IMG/VR virus record: IMGVR_UViG_3300028925_009627
Coordinates: 1-21,458 of that record
DNA: 21,458 nucleotides
Reading direction: 5' to 3' (one strand)
Source: a virus
In this document: positions 1,923 to 21,458 of the stretch, piece after piece
Layout: each line of letters starts with the position of its first letter
Position numbering within the stretch: position 1 is the stretch's first letter
The notes under the pieces: model-generated
The model's database searches: none
Seen by the model: only the letters and a program-made list of their open reading frames with translations
What the model was told of the DNA's origin: nothing
Program-made: the position numbers and the translations under genes

Positions 1923-2423
1923 TTACGGCGGGCAGGTCAACTCTAGAAACTCTTCCCACTGGTACGGCTCTTCAAAAACAGCCAAAGGCGCCACGGCTGC
2001 AAAGCCATCCATACGAAGATCAACAGCGTCGGCACCGTCAAAAACACTAATAGCCAGGCTGCGATCCCGAAGCACAACGAAGCAAGGAGCACCGGCATGG
2101 CGAGAAAGCCACGCACACTGATGAGGTGATAACGCCAGCTTCGTTGCGCCGTCGCGCAAGACTTTAAGTTCGAGGAACGAAAACCGGCCGCTCTCCGCGC
2201 AGAGTAAGACGTCGGGGACGCCCGGTATCGCCCAGCTTTCGAGCCGCGTCGTTTCAATCCGGCGCCCGGACTTCTGTATCCCCTGACGTATCAGGTTCCA
2301 CAGCCCCGACTCGCGGTTTGCGGACCCGCTTGGCACTTTGTTTTTTGACTTTTCCTGATTTTGGAGTGACGTCAATAATTGGTCGAACTGGCTCGAAGCT
2401 GGATCTGATTCTCTCGAGTTCAT
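1923..2423 (-). CDS. VRR-NUC-like PD-(D/E)xK nuclease
   Basis: Nuclease-like protein of 166 residues from the ATG at 2423, or 137 from the GTG at 2336. The core reads WAIPGVPDVLL (residues 64-74), FLELKV (83-88), then LSPHQCAWL (98-106). A PGxPD aspartate (D71), an E-x-K pair (E85, K87) and a following S-P-H-Q-W helix are the hallmarks of VRR-NUC and related phage nucleases of the PD-(D/E)xK fold, which cut structured or branched DNA. The role could be junction resolution or DNA processing in replication or packaging. The start is uncertain: the ATG places the first 57 codons inside the upstream terminase-like gene in another frame, whereas the GTG still overlaps by about 83 bases. The conserved domain begins near residue 40. 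Confidence 0.8.
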   Translation of the reverse strand: MNSRESDPASSQFDQLLTSLQNQEKSKNKVPSGSANRESGLWNLIRQGIQKSGRRIETTRLESWAIPGVPDVLLCAESGRFSFLELKVLRDGATKLALSPHQCAWLSRHAGAPCFVVLRDRSLAISVFDGADAVDLRMDGFAAVAPLAVFEEPYQWEEFLELTCPP

Positions 2424-2889
2424 CCTCTACGGCCTCTCGCGACATGGAATCGATTGAGCCTGTCCGCACTTCGCTTTTCGACACGTAAATGTCGCCCTGC
2501 GCCTGGCCCCTGCGGTACTCGGCCATCACGGCCGCACTGTAAGCACCTGCACCCATAGCAGCGTCTCGAATCTTTTGAAGATCGCGGACATGCTTCTTGT
2601 AGCCGACTCCATACATTTCGTCGAGTTCCTCGCGGTACTCTTGTATCTTGGCTACCACATGGGGGCACATGCGTTGGTTGGTCATTTCGCTGGCACGAAC
2701 GTGAGCCGAACCAACAGGATAGCCCGCCCGGATTGCTGCTTCACGTAGCGTTATTAAGCCGTCGTTCGAAACCAGTTCTTTCACGAATTTCTCCTGACGT
2801 CGCGTCAACTTCCGCGCGGCTCGTCGGGCTTCTTTCTCGGCATCGTCCGGTATTACCGCAACTTGCGCCTTCTGTTTCTTCTTTGTCAT
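2254..2889 (-). CDS. Terminase small subunit-like DNA-packaging protein
   Basis: This 211-residue protein opens with a basic stretch, then LTRRQEKFVKELVSNDGLI and LREAAIRAGYPVGSAHVRAS. This is the N-terminal HTH pattern of small terminases: a 'T-x-K-Q-x-x-F' helix, then 'A-A-x-x-A-G-Y' and a recognition helix. A helical middle (VVAKIQEYREELDEMYG) fits the oligomerisation region, and the C-terminus is Lys/Arg-rich and then acidic. Small terminases bind the packaging site and hand DNA to the large subunit, which is not in this window. An AT-rich intergenic region with seven GTCCCAC copies lies directly upstream and could be its binding site. The C-terminal 28 or more codons also encode the start of the nuclease in another frame. 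Confidence 0.75.
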   Translation of the reverse strand: MTKKKQKAQVAVIPDDAEKEARRAARKLTRRQEKFVKELVSNDGLITLREAAIRAGYPVGSAHVRASEMTNQRMCPHVVAKIQEYREELDEMYGVGYKKHVRDLQKIRDAAMGAGAYSAAVMAEYRRGQAQGDIYVSKSEVRTGSIDSMSREAVEDELERIRSSFEPVRPIIDVTPKSGKVKKQSAKRVRKPRVGAVEPDTSGDTEVRAPD

Positions 2890-2911
2890 CTCAGCCTCGA
2901 TTTCCCTTTAA

Positions 2912-2929
2912 TTTCAACGCTGTACCACC
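2912..2929 (+). repeat. Direct repeat copy 1 (TTTCAACGCTGTaCCACC)
   Basis: An 18-base element that recurs at 3015-3032 with a single difference (A to C). Each copy is joined to GTCCCAC motifs, so the unit looks like a duplicated protein-binding site. It lies directly upstream of the terminase-like gene. Confidence 0.7.
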
Positions 2930-3014
2930 GTCCCACTCCGAACACGGGACACCATGCCAAATCGGACGTGTTTGAGGTCCCAAAACAGGCCTCAAAAGGC
3001 ACTTTTCTCTTTAC

Positions 3015-3032
3015 TTTCAACGCTGTCCCACC
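3015..3032 (+). repeat. Direct repeat copy 2 (TTTCAACGCTGTcCCACC)
   Basis: Second copy of the 18-base element at 2912-2929, 103 bases away. It overlaps the second GTCCCAC copy. Confidence 0.7.
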
Positions 3033-3084
3033 ACTGTCCCACCACTTGACATTAGGTTCGTACTCGTCTTGTTCCATTTTGGCA

Positions 3085-3104
3085 GTAAACTACAGTTAGT
3101 TTAC
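3085..3104. promoter_or_regulatory. Perfect 8-bp dyad, possible operator
   Basis: GTAAACTA - CAGT - TAGTTTAC is a perfect inverted repeat with a four-base spacer in the AT-rich region upstream of the terminase-like gene. The size and symmetry suit a dimeric repressor or initiator. No U-tract follows, so it is not a terminator. Confidence 0.5.
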
Positions 3105-3372
3105 ACTAAAAGCGCTCAATTATAACTGTTTTATACTGTCTTTTGCCGTCCCACCTCTCCTTCCCATATAGTCCGGTGGGACGGTTGCCGTGACAGCTAG
3201 AAGTGCAAAAAACCTATATAGAATATGTAGTTACTTATGGGTGTCCCACTGTCCCACCAATCCCGCTAAATAACTGGAGATTTTATTTTTTTTTAAATAC
3301 GGAATTTAGTACTATAGGGGGACAACAACTTAGGAAAGCCGTGGGCCGTGGTTCTTGTTACGTGATTATTTC

Positions 3373-3849
3373 TTAGAACCCGTCGATTTTCGCTTCATCA
3401 TGTCCGGGCACCGTGTGGTGCTCCTCGACAACCCAGTCGGTCATCATGTCGAGCTTGAAGGCGTCGAGTTCACCTGACGTTGCTGTGTCTACATGGTCCC
3501 TGATCGCATCCCAGTCGAGGTTCCCTGCTTTGTCGATGGTTTTGGCAATCGACCTTGCCATAGCTTTGGTTATTTTCACTCCGACCCCCATCTTCTCGTA
3601 GACCTCGACCATTTCGAGCACTTCGTTCCAGTCGTAACAAATGGGTCCGTTTACTTCGATGCCTTCCGGTGGGTACACCGCATAGTCGATGTCCCGACCT
3701 ATCCGGCACGTCTCAATTTCGGCACCGATCTTTTTGGCAATCCGCTTGGCCTTTGCTCTGGCTGTCGCGTAGATATCTTTTTTCTTTGTCTTCGGCTTGG
3801 AAATTCCAAGCGCCTCACCTAGCAGTGAGTTGAATAATGACTTTGTCAT
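3373..3849 (-). CDS. Hypothetical phage protein, 158 aa
   Basis: The chosen ATG (3847-3849) has a strong ribosome binding site (CGGGAGAC), whereas the in-frame codon nine residues earlier does not. The N-terminus is MTKSLFNSLLGEALGISKPK, then a Lys/Ala-rich helix (ATARAKAKRIAKKIG), a more globular middle (DIDYAVYPPEGIEVNG) and an acidic C-terminus (DMMTDWVVEEHHTVPGHD). The Lys-rich helix could bind nucleic acid. The ATG overlaps the TGA of the small candidate ORF upstream (ATGA). It is the last gene of the leftward operon that begins at 6854. No family is recognised. Confidence 0.7.
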   Translation of the reverse strand: MTKSLFNSLLGEALGISKPKTKKKDIYATARAKAKRIAKKIGAEIETCRIGRDIDYAVYPPEGIEVNGPICYDWNEVLEMVEVYEKMGVGVKITKAMARSIAKTIDKAGNLDWDAIRDHVDTATSGELDAFKLDMMTDWVVEEHHTVPGHDEAKIDGF

Positions 3850-4004
3850 GGACGTCTCCCGATATTGGAGGCCCACGACTCACCTAAGTCGTGTTGTAGT
3901 GCCGCATCGAGGGCGGCCGACGTATTCACAATGGCAAAGAGCAGGTGGAAGATTGCTCGATCTTCTCTTGATGCCAGACTATCAGACCAATCCCATAAAG
4001 TCAA
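3846..4004 (-). CDS. Candidate small ORF with weak TTG start, 52 aa
   Basis: Reading leftwards from TTG at 4002-4004 gives LTLWDWSDSLASREDRAIFH, then LLFAIVNTSAALDAALQHDL and GESWASNIGRRP. The composition is protein-like (mixed amphipathic helix), and the TGA overlaps the ATG of the next gene (ATGA), as elsewhere in this operon. Against it, there is no ATG or GTG and only a weak ribosome binding site (GGATAAG). It could also be the tail of a decayed longer gene interrupted by the DnaA-box segment. Confidence 0.35.
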   Translation of the reverse strand: MTLWDWSDSLASREDRAIFHLLFAIVNTSAALDAALQHDLGESWASNIGRRP

Positions 4005-4078
4005 CCTACTTATCCACAGGTTAAGAAGATTTCTGGGGATAACTTTTAGAAAGTTGGGGATAAGTCTGGTACAACAAC
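4005..4078. other. Cluster of DnaA boxes, candidate phage origin
   Basis: A perfect DnaA box TTATCCACA lies at 4010-4018 on the plus strand. Two one-mismatch boxes, TTATCCCCA, lie on the minus strand at 4034-4042 and 4055-4063. The start-to-start spacings of 24 and 21 bases are close to two helical turns. A palindrome AACTTT-TAG-AAAGTT (4041-4055) joins the two minus-strand boxes. The segment is AT-rich and sits between two genes of one operon. Host DnaA binding here could serve replication initiation or regulation. Confidence 0.5.
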
Positions 4079-8060: not shown

Positions 8061-8251
8061 GGCTCCAACAACGTGTTTATGGTCCGGTGGCACGCACCAC
8101 AGCGCACCGAGGAGGGATCAGAATCATAGATGCGTCCACGGGTCAGGCCGCCGCAAAAGTCGCACTCCAGATATGTCTGGCGAAATCTCTTATAGGGGCC
8201 CTCGGGGTTTTTTTCCCTCAAGTCGTTCCAAGGGTTCTTAGCGGGAGGCAC
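8057..8251 (-). CDS. Small zinc-ribbon protein
   Basis: From GTG at 8249-8251 the protein reads VPPAKNPWNDLREKNPEGPY, then YLECDFCGGLTRGRIYD and SSVRCGACHRTINTLLEP. Two C-x2-C knuckles (CDFC and CGAC) 18 residues apart make a clear zinc ribbon, as in nucleic-acid-binding proteins. A TTG at 8293 in the same frame would add 14 residues but would overlap the upstream gene by 56 bases; the GTG overlaps by 14. Ribosome binding sites are weak for both. It overlaps the next gene by ATGA. Confidence 0.65.
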   Translation of the reverse strand: MPPAKNPWNDLREKNPEGPYKRFRQTYLECDFCGGLTRGRIYDSDPSSVRCGACHRTINTLLEP

Positions 8252-8405
8252 TTTTGGTTGTCTTTGGATCAGAGACCTCAGACATCTTTTCAAGCATGTG
8301 CGTGAATTGTCCGCTAATCGTGCGGTGTTCAGACCGCGCCAACGCCTTCAACTTATTGTAGGAAGGCACGGTTATGACAACGCTCTTCCACTTTTCGGGG
8401 TTCAT
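8238..8405 (-). CDS. Ribbon-helix-helix-like DNA-binding protein, 55 aa
   Basis: Starts at the ATG 8403-8405, preceded by GAGGAG at good distance. Reads MNPEKWKSVVITVPSYNKLK, ALARSEHRTISGQFTHMLEK, MSEV. A short beta strand (S-V-V-I-T-V-P) followed by two helices, with a turn of the type 'R-T-I-S-x-x-F-T-x-M-L-E', is the classic Arc/MetJ ribbon-helix-helix layout of phage and plasmid repressors that bind as dimers. It lies 40 bases after the DNA polymerase stop and is a candidate regulator of this operon or of the divergent promoters at 15.7 kb. Confidence 0.7.
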   Translation of the reverse strand: MNPEKWKSVVITVPSYNKLKALARSEHRTISGQFTHMLEKMSEVSDPKTTKSASR

Positions 8406-8445
8406 AATTGCAGTCTCCTCGTGGTGGACATTACAGGACTCGTCC

Positions 8446-10350
8446 CTAGTGGTCAATATCAAGTGTCGCGAGGTTCCCCCAGTTACCACCCATAGATATA
8501 TCGCTGGGAGATGGCACCTCTAGCTTTACCGCGTCCTCCATAATCGTGCAGAGGTCGCGGGCTTCCTTCTCGCTGGCAACAGAGAACGCAAGCTCGTCGT
8601 GGATTTGCAGTAGGGGTATCTTGCCCGTCTCCTCGTGGATCTTAGCCATCGCCTCCTTGGTCTGGTCCGCTGCGCTGGACTGGATCAGTCTGTTGAGCGC
8701 CTTGTATGTGTAGGCGCGTTTGATGTTGTCGCCGTATTCGATGTTGGCCTCCTCTTTGGGTAGGGCCCTGGCCGACACGAACATGTTGGGCTCCCACAGG
8801 TCGAACCGGCACTTGCGGCCGAGCAAGGAGCGGACGGCGCCACCCTTGTCCCGGTGTGACACCTTGCGCTGTACGGCGTCCATCAACTCCTTAACGAACG
8901 GGACCTCCTCGTGGTACACGCGCATAAGACGCTTGGCCTCCTGCGGCGTCACGTCCAGTTGCTCCGCGAGCCGTGTTTGCCCCATGCCGTACATGATGCC
9001 GAGGTTGATGGTCTTCGCTTGCTTGCGTGGGATGCCCGCAATGTCCGCGACCTTCTGGTGGAAGTCGGTCTTGGGGTCTGTGTTGTAGGCGTGAACGAAG
9101 GCGTCGGCACCCGTCAGGCCATTGTGCGTGAGGCTTGCGAAGTGGACCATGATGCGTGGTTCTTGCTGATCGAAATCCATAGACGCCCACTGCTCGCCTT
9201 CCTCCGGCAGGAACAGGCCGCGTATCTTTGCCGCCATCTCTGGGTTCCGGGCAGGGATTTGTTGGAGGTTGGGGTTGGAGCATGAGATGCGTCCCGTGAC
9301 TGTCCCCCCTCCCTCCGAGCGCAGTTGGTTGATGTGGCCGTGGATGCGGCCGTCCTCGGCGTAGCGGAAGATGCTCGACAGGAACGTATTGCCCAGCTTC
9401 GAGTATTCCCGCGCCATCGATATCTGTTGCGCGATGGGGTGCTCGTGTTGCGCCAGGAAGTTCTTCGTGAAGCTTGGAAGCCCCGTCGGGGTCCGGCCAT
9501 AGGTTATGTCCAGATGGTCGAACACCTTGGCGATAGACGCGGCGGCCCAAAGCTCGACCCCAAGTCCGGTCTGCTTCTTGACGTCGGCCAGGATGTCGTT
9601 GACGACAGAAAGGGTTTCCTGCTTTAGCCGCTCGGCGGCGTCTAAGTCTACTCGGACGCCCCGCCACGTCATGTCGATGCAGACGGGGAGGACGCGCGTC
9701 TCCAGGTCAAAGATTTGCCAGAGGTCTTGCTTGGTGAGTTCCATCTTGAAGATGCGCCACAGTTCCAACGTCAGGCGGGCGTCAGCCTCGGCGTACTCCC
9801 CCACAAAACAGGCGGGCAGTTTGTATAGCTCGGCCTTGGGGTCCACGCCGAAGTTCTGGGCGGCATCCCGGAGGGCGGCCTCTGACTTCATGTTCCCGGT
9901 GTAGTCGTAGCTGACTGCGTTGAGGGAAAAGCTGAACCGGTTCTCGTTAAGCAGGGGCGCTGCGAGCATGGCATCGATCAGTCGGCCGCTCAGGTCTATG
10001 CCCAGCCGCTTGAGCCAACCCACGTCGTAGGCCGCGTTGTAGAAGATCTTGTCAGAGGGGTGGCTCGCTATTTCCTTCTCGAACCAACGCATGACGATGC
10101 GCCGGTCGAGGTTTCCCCCGCCCTCGTGGGCAATGGGCAGGTAGGCGTTAAACCCGTCGTACGCGACGGCGATGCCGACGACGTCCCCATGTCCCGTGGC
10201 CCACCCAGGGCCGTGGGTCCTGAGGCGTGGGTCTTTAGTCTCTAAGTCAATCGCGATTTCTGTTATGTCGCTGGGCGTGGGGGGGAGGCTCTCAACGGGA
10301 ACCCACTCGGTCTGCACTCCCCAGACGGGCTTTTTAAGATTCTTCTTCAT
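8446..10350 (-). CDS. polA: Family A (PolA) replicative DNA polymerase with 3'-5' exonuclease
   Basis: 634 residues, starting at the ATG 10348-10350 (an ORF extension upstream is out of family and overlaps the neighbour). The 3'-5' exonuclease domain comes first: IDLET (D35, E37), YNAAYD (D109) and YAEAD (Y186, D190). The polymerase domain follows: motif A MDFDQQEPR (D392, E397), O-helix RKQAKTINLGIMYG (R442, K446, L450, Y454) and motif C QIHDE (H584, D585, E586). No 5'-3' exonuclease is present, as in most phage PolA. L450 replaces the Phe762 of E. coli Pol I. The gene overlaps the DUF6378-like gene by 17 bases. It should copy the phage genome with the primase and helicase encoded upstream. 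Confidence 0.97.
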   Translation of the reverse strand: MKKNLKKPVWGVQTEWVPVESLPPTPSDITEIAIDLETKDPRLRTHGPGWATGHGDVVGIAVAYDGFNAYLPIAHEGGGNLDRRIVMRWFEKEIASHPSDKIFYNAAYDVGWLKRLGIDLSGRLIDAMLAAPLLNENRFSFSLNAVSYDYTGNMKSEAALRDAAQNFGVDPKAELYKLPACFVGEYAEADARLTLELWRIFKMELTKQDLWQIFDLETRVLPVCIDMTWRGVRVDLDAAERLKQETLSVVNDILADVKKQTGLGVELWAAASIAKVFDHLDITYGRTPTGLPSFTKNFLAQHEHPIAQQISMAREYSKLGNTFLSSIFRYAEDGRIHGHINQLRSEGGGTVTGRISCSNPNLQQIPARNPEMAAKIRGLFLPEEGEQWASMDFDQQEPRIMVHFASLTHNGLTGADAFVHAYNTDPKTDFHQKVADIAGIPRKQAKTINLGIMYGMGQTRLAEQLDVTPQEAKRLMRVYHEEVPFVKELMDAVQRKVSHRDKGGAVRSLLGRKCRFDLWEPNMFVSARALPKEEANIEYGDNIKRAYTYKALNRLIQSSAADQTKEAMAKIHEETGKIPLLQIHDELAFSVASEKEARDLCTIMEDAVKLEVPSPSDISMGGNWGNLATLDIDH

Positions 10351-10684: not shown

Positions 10685-12204
10685 AGTGCCCATCCTCTCT
10701 GTGAATCTTCTGGGAGCTTTAGGACAAGGTTTGACTTGGCCCTTGTTAGTCCGACGTACAGAAGCCGGTGCGCGTCGTCTGGGTTCTTCTCCAGTTTCTG
10801 AATAGCCTTGCCAGAAAGGTCAAGGTACAGGAGGACGTTGTCGGCCTCCCCGCCCTTGGCGCCGTGGATGGTGGAGAGTTTGATCTTTGGCTTCTCGAAG
10901 ATGTTAACGCCACGGTTCAAGAGAGATGTGGCGTAGGCCCGGTCCTCGTCGGCTATCCTGTCCAGAGCTTCGTCCCACGGCCCGTCCGGAGTTTCCAGTC
11001 CAAAGTGTTTCCTGAGCACCTCCAGACTTAGAAGGTCTTTCTCGTCGGCTCCCCCCAGCATTTTCTTGGCGCCCCGCTTCAGACGACCGGACCCGCTGGA
11101 TATGAAGTTGTACAAGTTGATGGCGTCCTTGAGCGAGACCTCGTGGCCCGCCCCCTCCTGCAAGTAGTCCCACGATCCAATGGCGTTCTTGACGTTTTTG
11201 TCCAAGGACGGCGAGCCCTTCCGCTCGAAGTACTGGCCGTTAGACGTCATCCGATTCGAGATGTCGTCCAGCATGTAGTTTGCTTGCGCCAGCACCAGCC
11301 AGTTCTCGTCTCCGAACATGCTGGGGTCCACGTCGTAAACCCGCTCAACGGTGCCCTCTTCCTTCCGGGGGCGCCACTGCTTCTGCTGGCGTTTTTTGAT
11401 GCGCCGAACCACGGAGTTAGCCACCGCGTGTATGCTCCGGGGCACCCGGTAGGACTGCGACAGTACCTCTGAGCTACCCTCTAGGGTTACGAAGTGGTCT
11501 ATGTCTGCGCCCGCCCACCGGTAAATTCCTTGGTCGTCGTCCCCCGCAACGAACATCCGCTCGCTGCGCTCACTGAGGTGGCGCGCCACCTTCCACTGTA
11601 GGGGCGTCAGGTCCTGCGCCTCGTCGAGGAACACCACCTTCAAAGACGGAATGCTGGCCGGTCTTTCTGCGAGCTTCACCATCATATCGGTGAAGTCCAG
11701 GAGGCCCTTCGCCACCTTGAACCGTTCGTACTCGCTGTAGAGGTGCGCGAACTCATAGAACGGAATGCCCAACTCCGACTCGTTGTAGGCGCGCTCTATC
11801 CCGCCCATGGAGTTCCGGGCAAGGTCGAAACCCTGCATGATTGGATTGTTGGACTTTACGGCGGCAAAGCCGTCGTCGGAAACCCTCTGAGACCCGAGGC
11901 TCGTAAGGTCAAGGCCAATCTCCTTGGAGAAATCCTTGAGGCCTTTTTCCCCGAGTACTTCAGCTTTGGACAAGCCCAACGACTGAAAAGCCAAACTGTG
12001 CAACGTCCGGAAATAGGTGAAGTCTTTTTCCGGATCCAACCCGAACCGGGAGGTAGCCCTGTCGCGGGCCTCGTGGGCAGCCTTGCGGGAAAAGGCGAAG
12101 TAGCCGATCTCATTGGGCGAGACCCCGTTGGACAGCAACCCATCTACCTTGTTTAGAAGTGTGGTTGTTTTCCCCGTGCCGGGAGGGCCGAAATACCTAA
12201 ACAT
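10681..12204 (-). CDS. UvrD/Rep-like superfamily 1 DNA helicase
   Basis: 507 residues from the ATG at 12202-12204; an upstream in-frame extension of 26 codons lies inside the neighbouring gene. All SF1A motifs are visible: Walker A GPPGTGKTTT (6-15, K12), Ia YFAFSRKAAHEA (35-46), Walker B FLDEAQDLTPLQ (192-203), motif III AGDDDQGIYRWAG (220-232), motif IV QSYRVP, motif V STIHGAKGGEADNVLL and VI LLYVGLTRAK near the C-terminus. UvrD-like helicases unwind DNA 3' to 5' using ATP. In this phage it may be the main replicative unwinding motor, since no DnaB-type helicase is seen in the window. It overlaps the upstream HTH gene by eight bases and the DUF6378-like gene by ATGA. Confidence 0.95.
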   Translation of the reverse strand: MFRYFGPPGTGKTTTLLNKVDGLLSNGVSPNEIGYFAFSRKAAHEARDRATSRFGLDPEKDFTYFRTLHSLAFQSLGLSKAEVLGEKGLKDFSKEIGLDLTSLGSQRVSDDGFAAVKSNNPIMQGFDLARNSMGGIERAYNESELGIPFYEFAHLYSEYERFKVAKGLLDFTDMMVKLAERPASIPSLKVVFLDEAQDLTPLQWKVARHLSERSERMFVAGDDDQGIYRWAGADIDHFVTLEGSSEVLSQSYRVPRSIHAVANSVVRRIKKRQQKQWRPRKEEGTVERVYDVDPSMFGDENWLVLAQANYMLDDISNRMTSNGQYFERKGSPSLDKNVKNAIGSWDYLQEGAGHEVSLKDAINLYNFISSGSGRLKRGAKKMLGGADEKDLLSLEVLRKHFGLETPDGPWDEALDRIADEDRAYATSLLNRGVNIFEKPKIKLSTIHGAKGGEADNVLLYLDLSGKAIQKLEKNPDDAHRLLYVGLTRAKSNLVLKLPEDSQRGWAL

Positions 12205-12712
12205 CTTCACCACTGATGGGAAGCAAAGGTACCTTCCGCCGCAAATCGACATTGGCCTGTCTCTGCCGACTCTCGAAAGCATCTTGTCTCGCTTTCGTAA
12301 GCCTGATGTGCGTTCTTTTTATCTCTTCTCTCTTGGCCGACGCTCCCGCCAGGCCACCAAGAGGAACGTACGGCGGCCAGATATCGTATACAGCAACCCC
12401 AACGATAGAGCTTATGTGGCTTTTAATTTCCTCGGACGGGACCGAGACGCCCGTGATATACCGGCGAATTGTCTCGGCAGATTTTGTCACCCCGTTGACT
12501 CTGAGATTCGCGGTAAGTCCGACTGCGCTCATCTTTATGGCGTTTAACCTCAGCCGCAACGGGCTGTTCCAGCCCGCCGATACGTCGGGATGCACAGAAT
12601 TTTTCTCCGCCGGTTGGGGCGCGTCCCCATACTCCACGCGGATCGGCTCGCGAAGCCGCAGTATCTCGGCTCGCGCTAGTTCAAGAAGATCGACGATGTC
12701 AATTTTGCTCAC
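12197..12712 (-). CDS. HTH protein with Ner/Nlp-like motif, 171 aa
   Basis: Starts MSKIDIVDLLELARAEILRL, then a Pro-rich linker. The centre (LNAIKMSAVGLTANLRVNGV, TKSAETIRRYITGVSVPSEE, IKSHISSIVGVAVYDIWPPY) resembles an XRE/Ner-type HTH. 'S-A-E-T-I-R-R-Y' looks like a recognition helix, and 'V-x-x-x-D-I-W-P-P-Y' echoes the W-P-x-x-Y end of Ner/Nlp regulators. The C-terminus is Arg/Lys-rich. It lies between the primase and helicase genes, so it could be a replication accessory or a regulator of the operon. There are 18 bases between the primase stop and its start. Confidence 0.65.
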   Translation of the reverse strand: MSKIDIVDLLELARAEILRLREPIRVEYGDAPQPAEKNSVHPDVSAGWNSPLRLRLNAIKMSAVGLTANLRVNGVTKSAETIRRYITGVSVPSEEIKSHISSIVGVAVYDIWPPYVPLGGLAGASAKREEIKRTHIRLTKARQDAFESRQRQANVDLRRKVPLLPISGEDV

Positions 12713-12730: not shown

Positions 12731-14278
12731 TCAAAACGGAACGTCCTCCTCGTCGGCAAACTTCGTTGCGAAGTCCACTGACACTTTTTCAAAGGCTGGT
12801 ATTGACCAGCACCGGATCGTGCGACCCTTTATTCGGAACTGCTCGGAGGCCCCACCCATGTCCCGGATGCGTTGCGCGACCTTGTTTGATTTGTACTCGA
12901 AGAACTTGTGGCGCTTCAGGTACGACTCGAAGTCCTTGAGCCGGAAGTATGTCCGCTTCGTTTTCTCGTCAGTCCACGGACGACGCAGCAAGATCTCTTC
13001 CTTGTCCTGGGCGGACTGCATGTGCGTGGAGAACTCCTCCAGCAGATCGTTGAACTGACCCCGGAGACTGGTGTCGTCGGACGTCAAGATGACCGCGCCC
13101 TCGGTGCTTATCATCTGGCTTAGGAGGCCGTTCATCAGAGCTTCCCAAGCTGCGCGCGCCACGGTCCGGGGCATGAAGTTGATCTGCTCCATGCAAAGGA
13201 TCTGGAACCGCGCCTGTTTTTGTAGGCCCTCGGTGTCTAGCTCTACCGGGCTCCCGTTGACGTCTAGGAACCAAAGGGGAGGCTCGTTGCCGTACTTCCT
13301 GAGGTTAGCGACGGTCGGCGTATTCGCGCCGCCACCCACGCCGTGCTTCCGGCTGCGGCACAGGTCCTTGTTGCAGAAGCTGCATATGGGCTGGTCGGCG
13401 CATTTGTACTGGTAGTCCTTCTTGCCGATCTGGTCCGCGACGACGTTGACCTCCTTTAGGTCAAGGGGCGGGCTCATAATCGTTTGGTTGTAGTCCAGTA
13501 TTCTGGTTTCCCAGTCGTCTGGGTACGCCTTGCGGAGATACACGCCAAGGTTGAACAAGCCGTTGTTGCGAGTTCCCTCTGGGAAGCCCTGCCGGAGTAG
13601 TGCTTGCAAGCACGGCGGGCCGTCCTTGAGCCTATCGTCAACGGCGGGGGCCTCTTGCGTGAGTAGGGTGTCTAGGTCGGCGACGTCGATAGCCGATTCC
13701 TCGGCATACTTTAGAAACTCTTCAAGCGTGGCCGCGCTTCCGTCGCTCTTGAGCGCGTAGCGCAGTCCCCCCTCTTGGTCAAAGTACGGGAGGTTCAGAA
13801 AATTGCCGTTATCTCCCCGTTCTACAACGAGTTTTATCTGCTTTGGAAATATCTCACATCCACCATAGCCAAGTTCTGCGGCTATCTCCTTCAGCTTCAA
13901 CTGTAATGCCTCGGCCTCCACGAAGTCCTTTAGGAACAGGAAGACGTGCGCGCCAGCGGACTTGCTGCGGCACACCACCAGAGGCAACTCCAGCTTCTCC
14001 ACTCTCCTTATCAACGCGACATGGTCGAGTGGGTACTGGTCAATGTCTATGGCCCCCCACACGCATAAGTTGTCCTCGTTGATTGGCACGACGCCAATGC
14101 TCTGCTTCCCCGCGAGGTGCGCGTCAAAGGTTGCCGTGGTCCGTGGTTCCTTGACAAATAAATATTGCCCCTTTTGCTTCTGCGTCCGGGCGTCCTTGTC
14201 TCCAATCTGCAAAGAGCCGTAGGCCCTTTCGAGGCCTCGGAAAAGCGTGGCGAACCGTTCTGTGTTGGATTTTTCCAT
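12731..14278 (-). CDS. AEP-type primase (TOTE-like) with SSB-like C-terminal tail
   Basis: 515 residues. The archaeo-eukaryotic primase core is clear: motif I WGAIDIDQY (D78, D80), motif II KSAGAHVFLFL (H111), motif III CEIFPKQ (E142, K146) with GNFLNLPYF following. The closest family I recall is the primase domain of TOTE conflict systems and its phage relatives. A metal-binding cluster C293, C299, C302, C307 (ICSFCNKDLCRSR) follows. The C-terminal third has a winged-helix look and ends FADEEDVPF, an acidic tip resembling the E. coli SSB tail. It would synthesise primers for PolA. The ATG lies only six bases after a terminator-like hairpin, and no ordinary ribosome binding site is seen. Confidence 0.85.
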   Translation of the reverse strand: MEKSNTERFATLFRGLERAYGSLQIGDKDARTQKQKGQYLFVKEPRTTATFDAHLAGKQSIGVVPINEDNLCVWGAIDIDQYPLDHVALIRRVEKLELPLVVCRSKSAGAHVFLFLKDFVEAEALQLKLKEIAAELGYGGCEIFPKQIKLVVERGDNGNFLNLPYFDQEGGLRYALKSDGSAATLEEFLKYAEESAIDVADLDTLLTQEAPAVDDRLKDGPPCLQALLRQGFPEGTRNNGLFNLGVYLRKAYPDDWETRILDYNQTIMSPPLDLKEVNVVADQIGKKDYQYKCADQPICSFCNKDLCRSRKHGVGGGANTPTVANLRKYGNEPPLWFLDVNGSPVELDTEGLQKQARFQILCMEQINFMPRTVARAAWEALMNGLLSQMISTEGAVILTSDDTSLRGQFNDLLEEFSTHMQSAQDKEEILLRRPWTDEKTKRTYFRLKDFESYLKRHKFFEYKSNKVAQRIRDMGGASEQFRIKGRTIRCWSIPAFEKVSVDFATKFADEEDVPF

Positions 14279-14312: not shown

Positions 14313-15101
14313 CTAGAAGGGCACGTCGTCTGAAGACGAGGACGAAGAACCGGGTTCCTCGTTGACGTGTTGCACCTTCACTTGGCCCGCCCTAATAGAC
14401 TCGGCGAACAGTTTTGCCTCTGCGTAGAGGGCCGGGTCAGTTAGCGGCTCCCCCTTGGAGATCTGCCAGCCGTGCCATGAGCCGTTCTTGTTTTCCTCCG
14501 AGGCGGTCTCAAGTTTCCACTCGTGGCTAAACCGTGGCGGCGTAAACAGGTTGCCGTTCCGGTCCTTCATTTTGCTAGCCCGCATGGCGGAGTTCCATTG
14601 CTTGGACTTCTTGAACTGCGTTGATTTCATAGGGAGGAGGGCCTGCTGGGTAATGCCATCCCCGTCCACGACAAGAACATAGTGCTGTGCCGTGCGCTCT
14701 AGGTAGCGGCCGTTTCCGTCCACCACGTAGTCTTTGTTGTCGTCTCCACGCTCAGTCTTTGGCGTTTCCTCACCCGCACCGTAAATACGGTGTGGCGCTC
14801 CCGTGCCGGTGCCGCGTGGCTCCCACTCGATGTGCTGTAGGGTGTAGGCGCAGTTGACGACGGTAATGCCTTCGCCTCCCTTTACGACTTCCTTAGTGAC
14901 GGTGTTGTAGATGTCACCGGCTTTGGCGCCGTCTAGGTCGTCCAATTCGTCGGACATCTTCTGCAAGACCTTGAGAAAGGGGATCGCAAGATCGTCGGTT
15001 CCGAGGTCGGTAACGCCGACCCCCGCGTCCGCCGCGAACATATCCTCGTCCATGAGGGCGAGTTCCGTGGCGTCCTTCTTAGCTACGCTTGTCTTAGCCA
15101 T
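14313..15101 (-). CDS. SSB-like phage protein with acidic DDVPF tail
   Basis: 262 residues from an ATG with GAGGAG upstream. It starts MAKTSVAKKDATELALMDED, then LAIPFLKVLQKMSDELDDLD, GDIYNTVTKEVVKGGEGITV, YTLQHIEWEPRG, YVVDGNGRYLERTAQHYVLV, KSTQFKKSKQWNS and FTPPRFSHEWKLETASEENK. The tail is serine-rich and ends SSSSSDDVPF, the acidic tip used by bacterial SSBs to recruit partner proteins. The arrangement is that of putative ssDNA-binding proteins common in environmental phages. ssDNA binding is inferred from the tail, the beta-rich core and the position beside the primase. No OB-fold signature can be proved by eye. Confidence 0.7.
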   Translation of the reverse strand: MAKTSVAKKDATELALMDEDMFAADAGVGVTDLGTDDLAIPFLKVLQKMSDELDDLDGAKAGDIYNTVTKEVVKGGEGITVVNCAYTLQHIEWEPRGTGTGAPHRIYGAGEETPKTERGDDNKDYVVDGNGRYLERTAQHYVLVVDGDGITQQALLPMKSTQFKKSKQWNSAMRASKMKDRNGNLFTPPRFSHEWKLETASEENKNGSWHGWQISKGEPLTDPALYAEAKLFAESIRAGQVKVQHVNEEPGSSSSSSDDVPF

Positions 15102-17208: not shown

Positions 17209-17220
17209 GGCTAACCCTAC
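17205..17220. terminator. Hairpin at the convergent gene ends
   Basis: GTAGGG - CTAA - CCCTAC is a perfect 6-bp stem with a four-base loop, exactly between the two convergent genes. Its left arm contains the rightward stop (TAG, 17206-17208) and its right arm the leftward stop (TAG on the minus strand, 17217-17219). There is no T-run on either side, so termination strength is doubtful. Confidence 0.45.
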
Positions 17221-20200
17221 CCGACCATCTGCCTCGGCTTGGGCTTCACCGCCATAATTCCAGTTATGTGGCCGCCCCGTGCTGCGAACACTGGGTCGTT
17301 CATACCGAAGATAGACCGCCCCTGTTCAGCTACTTGCGGAGACCCTGGCCCTTGGGCCGCGAGCGCCGCTTGCTGAACCGGTGCCCCACCCGTGGGGTTC
17401 ACTTGATTGAGCACCGAGCCGGGAACGATGAAGGGCGGCGCTTGTGTGTTGACCGGCGCCAAGCGGCGCTGCACAGGCGGAGGATCGTCATCAAGTTCTT
17501 CTTCGGCGCGTTTGGTTATAGCCAATCTGGATGCGGGCCTTCCGGAGACATCAACCACATCTATAGCCGCCCGGCGCAGCGCGTTGGCAAGCCCGCTCCG
17601 TTGGTCTGAGGCTCTTAGGACAAGCGCGGCACCTTTGTCGGGGTTCAAAGCGGCGTCAATTAGAATATCTTTAATCTTTGATCCCGTAACTCTCAGTCCC
17701 AAGGTCTTCCCGACTTTTGAACCGGCTGCCCCCGCCCACAGTGCATTTACAGTCCTTGTTGAATCCGCGGCCCCAAGGGCTGCAACTCTGCCAAGGAAAC
17801 CCCACCCGCTAAGGTTGACGGCCTCTGCCGGGTTTACCCCACCCGCCAACTTGCCACCTTGCGTGAAGTTGGAGGTCTCAAAGGCCACCTTCGCCATGTT
17901 GTCAAGGTTACCAAGAAGATCACCATTGTCCGGGAAGGCTTCTAGTAAGATAGTTCTGACGCGGGGATCCCCGATCAATTCTCGAAATTTAACGGGGTCA
18001 AACGCCTGAAATGAAGAGTCTCCGGTTTCTTTTATAAGAAGGTCACTGCGGCTAAGAGACCGCTCGAAAAGCTGTCCCAGGACAGAAGCCTGAAACCCTT
18101 TTTCTGCTTGCTTGTTCCCACGCACGATAGACATGAACTCCTGCATGTCCTGCTTGGGTCGGCTGTTCCCACTGCCCAAAACTCTGTCGAACAGGCTTCC
18201 TACTGCCCGACCAGGGTCGGAATTAAGGACTTCGGAGAATGCGTTTTTCTCTGAAATCCTTTTTCTACGTTGGCCGATGTAGTCTAAGTAATCATCTATT
18301 TTAAGACCCTCTAAGTCCAACGAACCGCTTTCCACGAGTTCCGTAAGCTGCCGTTTTGTTTTATCCCGCCGGAGATTTGCAAGCACGTCTAACTGTAGCG
18401 CCAGACCGTCGGCGTTGTTCAGGAGATCCGGTACGGAATTAAAACCGTTGTCCTCCAAGAACTTTATTGCAACTTTGTTGTTTTTCCGGAAAGACTGCAA
18501 CCTGTTTGAGTCCACACCGTCCGGGAAATCAAGCGCCAGCCTTTCTAAGATAATGCTTTCGGCTAACTTCAAAGAACGGTCTGACACGGGGGCGTTCTGT
18601 TTAAGTCTTATTTCAAAGGGGGTGCCCGCCTGCCCCACGGAAACCATTTCAAATGGAGAATCCGGGCGCTCAAAGAGAGACGCAGATCCGTCCAGAGCTT
18701 TTTCGTCAATTGTCGCAACCGTAACTCCGTCATCTCCCCGCGTGATGGTAACGAAGTCAGGTACTTCGGCGGTAGACTGTTGGAGCAATCTTAGTTCTGA
18801 GGCGCCTGCCGCATTTGGTAGAACCTTTTCGGGGACGTTTTCTACCTCGACCTTAACTTGAGAACCCCGCCTCTTTTCCAAGACAGGTCCCTGGGAGTCG
18901 ATCACGCTATTTTTTACACGAGAGGCTTCCCTTGCAAAGTTTAACTGCCCTGCGTCCAACTCCGGAAAAGTCCGGGAGTCCAAGAGTTGCTCAACAGTTT
19001 CCCTAATTTGTTGGATTCTACGATATTTAGGCGAAGTGCCGTTAAGAGCCTTCTCCACTCTTGCCGCTTCCGAAAGATCCGAAACAACTTCTCTAACGTC
19101 TTCGGCGGAAGTTCCGGATCGCACCAAGTCGCCATTGCCATCCCGAGCGGTTAACCGACCGCTTTCCGGAACTTGGACATCGTCGCCCACCCCGAGAATC
19201 TTTTGTGTGATGTCTTCTATGTCTCTTTGTGCTTTCCGGGCGGTGTCCGCAAAGGCACTCATTCTCTTGTCTATAGCCCTTACAGCCGTCGAAGAAACGG
19301 TGCCGTCACCTAGGCCTGCTATAATTTTCTTTTGGCGGGCTATTTCTGCAAAAGCATTCCCCATCTTTTTTGCGCCTGGAGGAGCATAGGCTCTTGCCTC
19401 GGCCGGGCTGAGGGTCTTCCAGATTAGGTCTGGGTTGTTAACAAATTTATCCATCTCGAATAAGGGGTCGAAGTCTGGTCCATTGCGCGGAACCATCGAG
19501 GAGTCTCTATGCGCCATTTGCACATAGCTCGTCAGCGCTTTCGACTGCGCTTCAGAAGCCACCCTGTCCGCAGAAACCTGCGCGGTCATCTCGGCGTCAA
19601 GCTCATCCCTTTGTGCGACGGCGTCGTTCCGGCGTCGTTCAAGGACAAGTATCTTTTCGTCCGAACCGCTAGGACCCCCTGTCTCTGCATCTCTCATTTG
19701 ACGCCGGTTCATCTGAGCCAAGATGGTTCTTGAACCGGCAAGTTGGGCAAGCTGCTGCGGAACTTCCTTGGGATTAAACGCTTCTGTGGGGGAAAGGTTA
19801 TCGAAACGGCTGGAGGCCCATTCCTCCACGGTCATGCCGGAAATATCAGCACCGTCTGAGGGGTCTCTGGAACCCTTCGGAAAGACGATGTTCTCCGTAA
19901 CCTTACTATCCAAGCCGTTTATCCGACTGTAGGCGGCACTTTCAAACGCCCTGAACTCGCGGGCTGCGTCGTCGTACGTGCTCCGAATTAAGTCCCCAAC
20001 AAGTTTTCTTTCCGCTTCGGGTAAGTCAGCAGCAGTCTTCAGACCCCTGTTCCTAGCGTACAACTCTACGTCCTGCTGCCAGAACTCAACTCGGCGTTGG
20101 GCCGCTTCTTGCGCGTTCGCGAGGACTTCGTCCATTTTCGCAGACAAATCCACCCTAATTGCGTCTACTCGCGATGCTGTTTGCGGTTCTAACCAAAGCA

Positions 20201-21458
20201 ACTCCGAGGATTCAACTCCTCTTGGGTCGCCCTCCATAACCAGTTTCCGGCGGTTGACTTCAAACTCCGGCGCAGAGTTTCCTTGAAGAGCTTTCTCCAA
20301 ATCAACGCGATGCTCGTCGGGGGTGCCCCCTGGCTTTCCGTTGAAGTCTAATTCGTCAACGGATCTCTTGAATTGCCCTTCAATGTAGTTGAAGAACTGG
20401 TCCCGGCGCTCAACCAACCGTTTCGTTTCAGCTTGGAAGAACCTGCTTGCTACCCCCGGAGTTTTATCTTTAGCCGCCGATTCAAGAACGGCCTCGTAGA
20501 AATTGGATGTTCGGTTAAGGTTGCCGACGTTTATTTCGTCTGTCTCTATTTCTTTCTCCAACCGCTCCCGTACTTTTTCGTCTGTCTCCTGAGACAGGCG
20601 CTCCCGTTTAATCTGAACCTCCGACCTCAATATGTTTGCTTCGGTCCTTGCCAGTTCAGGCGTTGTGAACACGAGGCCTGAGGCCTCGTCAACATGCCTC
20701 CCGTCTGCAATTGCTGCTCTTAACAGAGTGGCAACGGACAGTACCGCTGCGCGGTCTTGGGAGCCGCTTCCGAGTTGTTTCTGTGCGAAACTGGTTGCCG
20801 AGCGACTGGGCCTGAAAAGAGGGTCTACGACTAATTTTGTTACTGTTCCGATGACCGGCCCTTGTAGAAGACCGGTAAATACTCCTCTTGCAGCAATAGG
20901 AGCAATAAGGCCCGACCCTAAGGCAACCGATGCTTTGATCCACCCTGCGGCGTCCGGGTCGACGTTATCCAAAATCTCTAAGCCACCCACTGTTGATGCC
21001 CCTGCCGCAGAACCAAAAGTAGCTTCTTGACTAAGGTTCCGACGGCCGCCCTTGGTCAAAGGATTGTAAGCGGCGTAGGCTTTGTCCACTAAGGTTTGGA
21101 CGTTCTTGGGGTCTAATGCGTCCTCTCCAAGTTCCCTGACACTTTCCTTAGCGAACCTTGAAAGAAGGAACCTCTGCCCTCCCTGCAACATTTTTGCAGG
21201 GGCCGTAACACCCAAAACCATCGGGGGACCGCTAACCGCAGTCTCTAAACCTACTTTAAGAACTTCTTCCCAGAAACCTCGGGCTTCCGGGGTCATGTCC
21301 GTCCCGACACTATCCTCGAAAGGTGCAAATCCCCAGTTGTCCTTCGCCCAACTGTCCGCCGCCCGGACGTACTGTGAGAACCTCTTCTGTTGCGCTGCAC
21401 TCCCGTAATCCGCTGCAAATTGTCTCTTCTGGATATTTGCGCTTTTTCGTTGTTCGTT
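17217..21458 (-). CDS. Very large virion protein (internal virion/tail-associated), 5' end outside the window
   Basis: Open from base 21458 to the TAG at 17217, at least 1,413 residues; the frame continues past the ATG at 21296 to the edge (NEQRKSANIQKRQFAADYGS is the first visible stretch), so the true start lies outside. Visible residues about 174-214 are Gly/Ala-rich and hydrophobic (WIKASVALGSGLIAPIAARG, VFTGLLQGPVIGTVTKLVVD) and could enter a membrane. Long charged helices follow (VQIKRERLSQETDEKVRERL and others), with many predicted coiled coils. The C-terminus is Pro/Gln/Ala-rich and ends HITGIMAVKPKPRQMVG. Size and composition fit an internal or ejected virion protein of podovirus-like phages. 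No lytic transglycosylase motif is visible here. Third-position A/T is commoner than in the replication genes. Confidence 0.75.
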   Translation of the reverse strand, partial: NEQRKSANIQKRQFAADYGSAAQQKRFSQYVRAADSWAKDNWGFAPFEDSVGTDMTPEARGFWEEVLKVGLETAVSGPPMVLGVTAPAKMLQGGQRFLLSRFAKESVRELGEDALDPKNVQTLVDKAYAAYNPLTKGGRRNLSQEATFGSAAGASTVGGLEILDNVDPDAAGWIKASVALGSGLIAPIAARGVFTGLLQGPVIGTVTKLVVDPLFRPSRSATSFAQKQLGSGSQDRAAVLSVATLLRAAIADGRHVDEASGLVFTTPELARTEANILRSEVQIKRERLSQETDEKVRERLEKEIETDEINVGNLNRTSNFYEAVLESAAKDKTPGVASRFFQAETKRLVERRDQFFNYIEGQFKRSVDELDFNGKPGGTPDEHRVDLEKALQGNSAPEFEVNRRKLVMEGDPRGVESSELLWLEPQTASRVDAIRVDLSAKMDEVLANAQEAAQRRVEFWQQDVELYARNRGLKTAADLPEAERKLVGDLIRSTYDDAAREFRAFESAAYSRINGLDSKVTENIVFPKGSRDPSDGADISGMTVEEWASSRFDNLSPTEAFNPKEVPQQLAQLAGSRTILAQMNRRQMRDAETGGPSGSDEKILVLERRRNDAVAQRDELDAEMTAQVSADRVASEAQSKALTSYVQMAHRDSSMVPRNGPDFDPLFEMDKFVNNPDLIWKTLSPAEARAYAPPGAKKMGNAFAEIARQKKIIAGLGDGTVSSTAVRAIDKRMSAFADTARKAQRDIEDITQKILGVGDDVQVPESGRLTARDGNGDLVRSGTSAEDVREVVSDLSEAARVEKALNGTSPKYRRIQQIRETVEQLLDSRTFPELDAGQLNFAREASRVKNSVIDSQGPVLEKRRGSQVKVEVENVPEKVLPNAAGASELRLLQQSTAEVPDFVTITRGDDGVTVATIDEKALDGSASLFERPDSPFEMVSVGQAGTPFEIRLKQNAPVSDRSLKLAESIILERLALDFPDGVDSNRLQSFRKNNKVAIKFLEDNGFNSVPDLLNNADGLALQLDVLANLRRDKTKRQLTELVESGSLDLEGLKIDDYLDYIGQRRKRISEKNAFSEVLNSDPGRAVGSLFDRVLGSGNSRPKQDMQEFMSIVRGNKQAEKGFQASVLGQLFERSLSRSDLLIKETGDSSFQAFDPVKFRELIGDPRVRTILLEAFPDNGDLLGNLDNMAKVAFETSNFTQGGKLAGGVNPAEAVNLSGWGFLGRVAALGAADSTRTVNALWAGAAGSKVGKTLGLRVTGSKIKDILIDAALNPDKGAALVLRASDQRSGLANALRRAAIDVVDVSGRPASRLAITKRAEEELDDDPPPVQRRLAPVNTQAPPFIVPGSVLNQVNPTGGAPVQQAALAAQGPGSPQVAEQGRSIFGMNDPVFAARGGHITGIMAVKPKPRQMVG

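Follow-up and report, generated by a model that had tools for sequence, protein, structure and literature searches.

A conserved, lineage-specific repeat array upstream of the small-terminase gene of an uncultured phage, a candidate replication origin or control region

Operator arrays of the Omega/CopG/Arc type are built of short direct and inverted sites, and ribbon-helix-helix (RHH) proteins bind tandem sites of 7-8 bp. The alpha protein of P4 binds repeats at the P4 origin through a winged helix and both unwinds and primes, its primase being of the TOPRIM type, and in RSF1010 the iterons are read by a separate protein, RepC (PMC4234260). At SPP1 pac, direct repeats lie over the terS promoter, adjoining and covering the terS start, and the HTHs of SF6 TerS bind with little sequence specificity (PMC4737164). 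We use P4 and SPP1/SF6 here as models for a possible mechanism, not as proven memberships.

The window analysed is a linear IMG/VR fragment of 21,458 bp, not a whole phage genome, from an uncultured phage that is probably marine. Nearly all of its genes are on the minus strand, with SNF2 on the plus strand, and their order is SNF2, gp33-like, Pam3 gp34-like, AEP-TOTE primase (12731-14278, minus strand), UvrD, PolA, RHH-like (8238-8489, minus strand), lysin, a small gene without a match in the family search (3373-3876, minus strand), the array, TerS (2254-2889, minus strand), and a gene with matches to phage nuclease/helicase families, which we read as a VRR-type nuclease. The TerS-like gene matches PHROG 51 (E=5.7e-11) and, under the Pfam cut-off, Terminase_2 (E=6.7e-4); the small RHH-like protein matches RHH_5 at E=0.034, also under the cut-off. 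This gene order resembles that of phage DSL-LC04, where several genes separate TerS from a later TerL. An open frame of >1400 codons (17217-21458, minus strand) runs off the contig end, and the DSL-LC04 gene at the matching place is annotated 'DNA transfer protein'. The AT-rich gap upstream of the DSL-LC04 TerS operon (L003, 2747-3391) holds an inverted repeat whose arms, TTCCTATAGGATACACTCTCT / AGAGTGTATCTATAGGAA, lie far apart. In the window, primase and Pam3 gp34-like protein share an acidic ending, ...DVPF (12731-12750 and 14313-14330), that is reminiscent of the SSB C-terminal tip.

The initial annotation had reported seven copies of GTCCCAC in about 330 bases beside the TerS gene, and exact positions and shuffles confirm this: the copies lie within 328 bp, at 2930, 3025, 3036, 3148, 3243 and 3251 (plus strand) and 3176 (minus strand). 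On the TerS-sense strand the word is GTGGGAC; with one variant site, GGTGGTACAG, the array spans 2920-3257. Just two further copies occur in the window (10972 and 11167), both within the UvrD gene. The total of nine, against 2.9 expected, was reached in none of 100 shuffles, and seven per 330 bp compares with at most three in 200 dinucleotide shuffles. When all 7-mers were allowed, the largest cluster in shuffled windows was five (one of 60 shuffles). The copies had been described as often extended, and three do reach GTCCCACCA; the 18-bp direct repeat that had been described exists, with its length corrected to 29 nt at 90% identity (2901-2929 and 3004-3032, plus strand).

Nearest to TerS is a pair kept in relatives, made of the variant, eighth site GGTGGTACAG (2920-2929) and GTGGGAC (2930-2936), both on the minus strand. 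Beyond it come a tandem pair of GGTGGGACAG spaced by 11 bp (3025-3042, minus strand), a convergent inverted pair, CCGTCCCACC (3146-3155) and GGTGGGACGG (3175-3184), with convergent sites also found in L091, L148 and L054, and a CTATATAG block (3214-3221) that relatives keep as TATATAAGG or TATATAGG between array sub-blocks. The distal tandem sites (3243-3257, minus strand) are spaced by 8 bp in the window; some relatives have three, in triplets spaced by 8-9 bp. An A/T-tract adjoining them (3281-3297) is also kept in relatives. The AT-rich context already noted holds, since no 300-bp windows of the contig are lower in GC than those in the array region (41% vs 56%), and in relatives G001 and G002 too the lowest-GC stretch is at the array. 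The A-tract and TATATA block adjoining the sites are candidates for unwinding. An Rfam search gave no match.

For conservation, 573 IMG/VR stretches encoding TerS relatives were matched and 80 loci retained, and the tally covered 75 distinct TerS sequences whose upstream DNA was long enough, requiring at least two copies of the class site. Alignment among relatives had been proposed as a check, and 70 of the 75 distinct relatives carry such sites upstream of TerS. By classes named after the loci were inspected, and therefore post hoc, these divide into 29 GTGGGAC, 8 GTGGTAC, 2 GTGGCAC, 2 GTGATAG and 29 GTAACC. The copies of the site change together from lineage to lineage (GGTGGGACAG, GGTGGTACAG, GGTGGCACAG, GGTGTAACCG, GGTGATAGGA). 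The classes have a similar arrangement, with an inverted site, an A-tract, tandem sites spaced by 8-9 bp, a TATATA block, convergent sites and a pair close to TerS. The array is a real, conserved and lineage-specific feature. Since its site differs between phage lineages and has been homogenised within single genomes, a phage-encoded partner is suggested.

Arrays were also found further afield. HTVC023P has five copies of CTAGGAAA upstream of TerS, and HTVC027P has GTGAAACAG/TGTAACA sites within a nearby gap. With GGTGGCACAGGTGGCACAG as the pattern, an IMG/VR scan turned up arrays close to genes for TerS relatives at 35-43% identity. The GGTGGCACAG-scan matches in L205 and L219 were set aside as collagen-like or Gly-Gly-Thr coding repeats. 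A genome scan with a strict pattern matched just Streptomyces and Skermania contigs; a TGGCACA/TGTGCCA array was noted in a Skermania contig.

The cultured siphophages PMBT28, VLCpiS6a, Kokobel2 and Bhz9 encode related primases (~30% identity), with related UvrD, PolA and SNF2-type genes. Each has two arrays, both with one lineage-specific site, as against one array per genome in the window group and in HTVC023P; one of the two lies directly upstream of the primase gene, 21-25 kb from TerS. TGGCACA arrays lie directly after a D5/DUF5906 primase-helicase gene (D5_N and DUF5906 both present) in L241 and L279. No array was recognised in R5C, Pan1 and ct3Et533, which have a related primase, so the association of array and primase module is not universal; none was recognised in DSL-LC04. 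As separate observations, TGGCACA/TGTGCCA arrays occur by D5/DUF5906 primase-helicases or terminase genes of other phages (L241, L279, L273, L253 and L394), and Kokobel2 (L389) has, at 13401-13440, three tandem ATCTTTTGTACCC repeats that precede a sigma70-like promoter and have no relation to the arrays.

A DnaA-box cluster is found at 4010-4063 of the window, separated from the array by the small gene 3373-3876, with one exact TTATCCACA (4010-4018, plus strand) and two one-mismatch TTATCCCCA (4034-4042 and 4055-4063, minus strand). The boxes of the window alone are not above chance; enrichment shows in the comparison of relatives. Non-GTAACC representatives have 23 copies of TTATCCACA at -1750 to -280 from TerS vs one elsewhere, scrambled versions give 0-2 copies in the same comparison, and AAAGTTATCCACA words, i.e. 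the same box word, ranked top in an unbiased 9-mer scan. The enrichment in GG-type phages falls 1.0-1.5 kb upstream of TerS. The exact box is present in 10 of 22 non-GTAACC representatives with enough upstream DNA and in 0 of 14 GTAACC-type representatives, and no DnaA box was found at any array of the cultured phages.

Our preferred reading, to which we give a probability of just under one half (about 0.48), is that the array would provide the iterons of a replication origin, or of a region controlling replication, perhaps read by the AEP-TOTE primase. Supporting it are the array in 70 of 75 relatives with its similar layout and coordinated site change, the recurrence of arrays in cultured phages with primase, UvrD, PolA and SNF2-type genes, the TGGCACA arrays after the primase-helicase gene in L241 and L279, the TTATCCACA enrichment near TerS in non-GTAACC phages, the position of the lowest-GC stretch in the window, G001 and G002, and the winged helix predicted for the primase, with its difference by type described below. 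Counting against it are the lack of DnaA boxes in the GTAACC class and at the cultured-phage arrays, the four phages without a recognised array (R5C, Pan1, ct3Et533 and DSL-LC04), the distance of 10 kb between primase and array in the window, and a monotonic GC skew, in itself uninformative on an origin, with no turning point at the array. Iteron plasmid origins are alike in their tandem sites and AT-rich block and, for part of the group, in their nearby DnaA boxes. The initial annotation had offered an iteron origin as its alternative, and repeats, AT-rich blocks and the primase module make this better supported than a TerS-binding array, with the DnaA boxes applying to part of the group only.

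In outline, a sequence-specific phage protein of the conserved primase-UvrD-PolA-SNF2 module would bind the sites of the GGTGNNACAG type, tandem as well as inverted, would bend or melt the adjoining A-tract and TATATA block, and would let the phage primase begin synthesis; in GG-type phages host DnaA may assist from the box cluster ~1 kb off. That any protein binds the array, which protein it is and that replication starts there we infer rather than observe.

The best candidate for the array reader, by analogy with P4 alpha, is the AEP-TOTE primase acting through its C-terminal winged helix. Its AlphaFold2 model has an AEP domain, with CAPP Prim-Pol as best PDB match (E 6e-11), and a C-terminal winged helix at residues about 435-494. 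Modelled alone, the winged helix has a mean pLDDT of 70, and its best PDB matches, TcpK-oriT and HSF/PadR domains, have weak E values (0.03 and above). At the predicted recognition helix, GG-type phages have SNK and GTAACC-type phages SHK, a difference that follows the two main clades and is thus confounded with descent. P4 ori and crr are alike in having multiple short repeats, a primase with a winged helix (predicted for the window primase) and, as in some phages here, two separate arrays; the P4 repeat, GGTGAACAG(A/T), resembles the site GGTGNNACAG. The P4 alpha primase, however, is TOPRIM-type rather than AEP-TOTE, and the window primase gave no D5_N, DUF5906 or SF3 match, so the SF3 helicase of a P4-type origin was not found. 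By Foldseek, the window primase lies close to RSF1010 RepB' (3h20, E 8e-5), but in RSF1010 RepC reads the iterons, and a RepC-like gene was not identified in the window. An HTH-like gene between primase and UvrD (12197-12712, minus strand) was rejected as reader, being without ortholog in the relatives checked. In a wider proposal, which we regard as speculative and on balance unlikely, a large group of marine phages with no SF3 helicase of its own would use a stand-alone AEP-TOTE primase, equipped with a C-terminal winged helix, as the initiator that binds its iterons, and iterons and winged helix would co-diverge by lineage.

It is also rather unlikely, in our estimate, that the array is an operator at which a phage regulator, RHH-like or other, binds the repeats and controls the replication-operon and late-operon promoters. 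Arrays do lie upstream of operons (the primase operon; TerS), and in siphophages promoter-like sequences follow them, but similar promoters in those siphophages have no array and a promoter scan of the window did no better than chance. The window DnaA-box cluster, too, directly precedes a promoter-like sequence, and a DnaA-controlled promoter there is a possible alternative role for the boxes. The tandem sites fit the binding habit of RHH proteins, and the Omega/CopG/Arc arrays are alike in their short direct and inverted sites, here spaced by 8-11 bp. An RHH-like gene is present directly after PolA and is kept in the podovirus group, including HTVC023P (gp13, annotated hypothetical). It does not occur wherever the array does, however, as a search of the array-bearing siphophages PMBT28 and Bhz9 gave no match, and the RHH strands are identical between GTGGGAC and GTGGTAC phages.

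Less probable again is a pac site, where TerS rings would bind the array by their own gene and packaging would start. The TerS-binding array of the initial annotation stands insofar as the repeats are beside terS, as in SPP1/SF6: the window group has its single array directly upstream of TerS, and the A-tracts could bend DNA. Two further observations weaken that reading. The TerS HTH does not track the site, since L010 (mainly GTGGTAC) and L013 (GTGGGAC) share the same 52 residues there (100% identity), although this comparison is a weak test, SF6 TerS being barely sequence-specific (PMC4737164), and the site centre may simply not be contacted by the reader protein. Second arrays, in contrast to SPP1/SF6, lie at primase genes, some 21-25 kb from TerS, in the four cultured phages that share the replication module, and phages with a different TerS have arrays after primase-helicase genes. 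The TerS proteins of PMBT28 and L253 are remotely related and fall in the same PHROG 51, which favours the pac reading, and the two-array argument therefore rests on array position, not TerS ancestry. CRP-901 was set aside as packaging-only control, a weak test since its TerS looks like a different family. A PHROG 2 search of the group gave no match, and the TerL of HTVC023P falls in PHROG 38.

That the array serves a host protein, or some other conserved phage protein, in a different role (partitioning, host-factor recruitment) is very improbable, for although the GGTGGCACAG word is also found in phages with unrelated primases, a lineage-specific site homogenised within the genome suggests a phage-encoded partner.

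In the sections available to us of two papers (PMC9599517, PMC10149686), HTVC023P-type relatives are placed among the abundant ocean phages and their DNA-copying start is not stated. Under the preferred reading of an iteron-type origin or control region, the array is a precise candidate location for this start in HTVC023P-type phages, and the lineage-specific versions of the site are a natural series for identifying the reader protein. If the primase does read the array, the P4 principle, in which a primase with a winged helix reads iterons, would extend to TOTE-type primases without a fused helicase.
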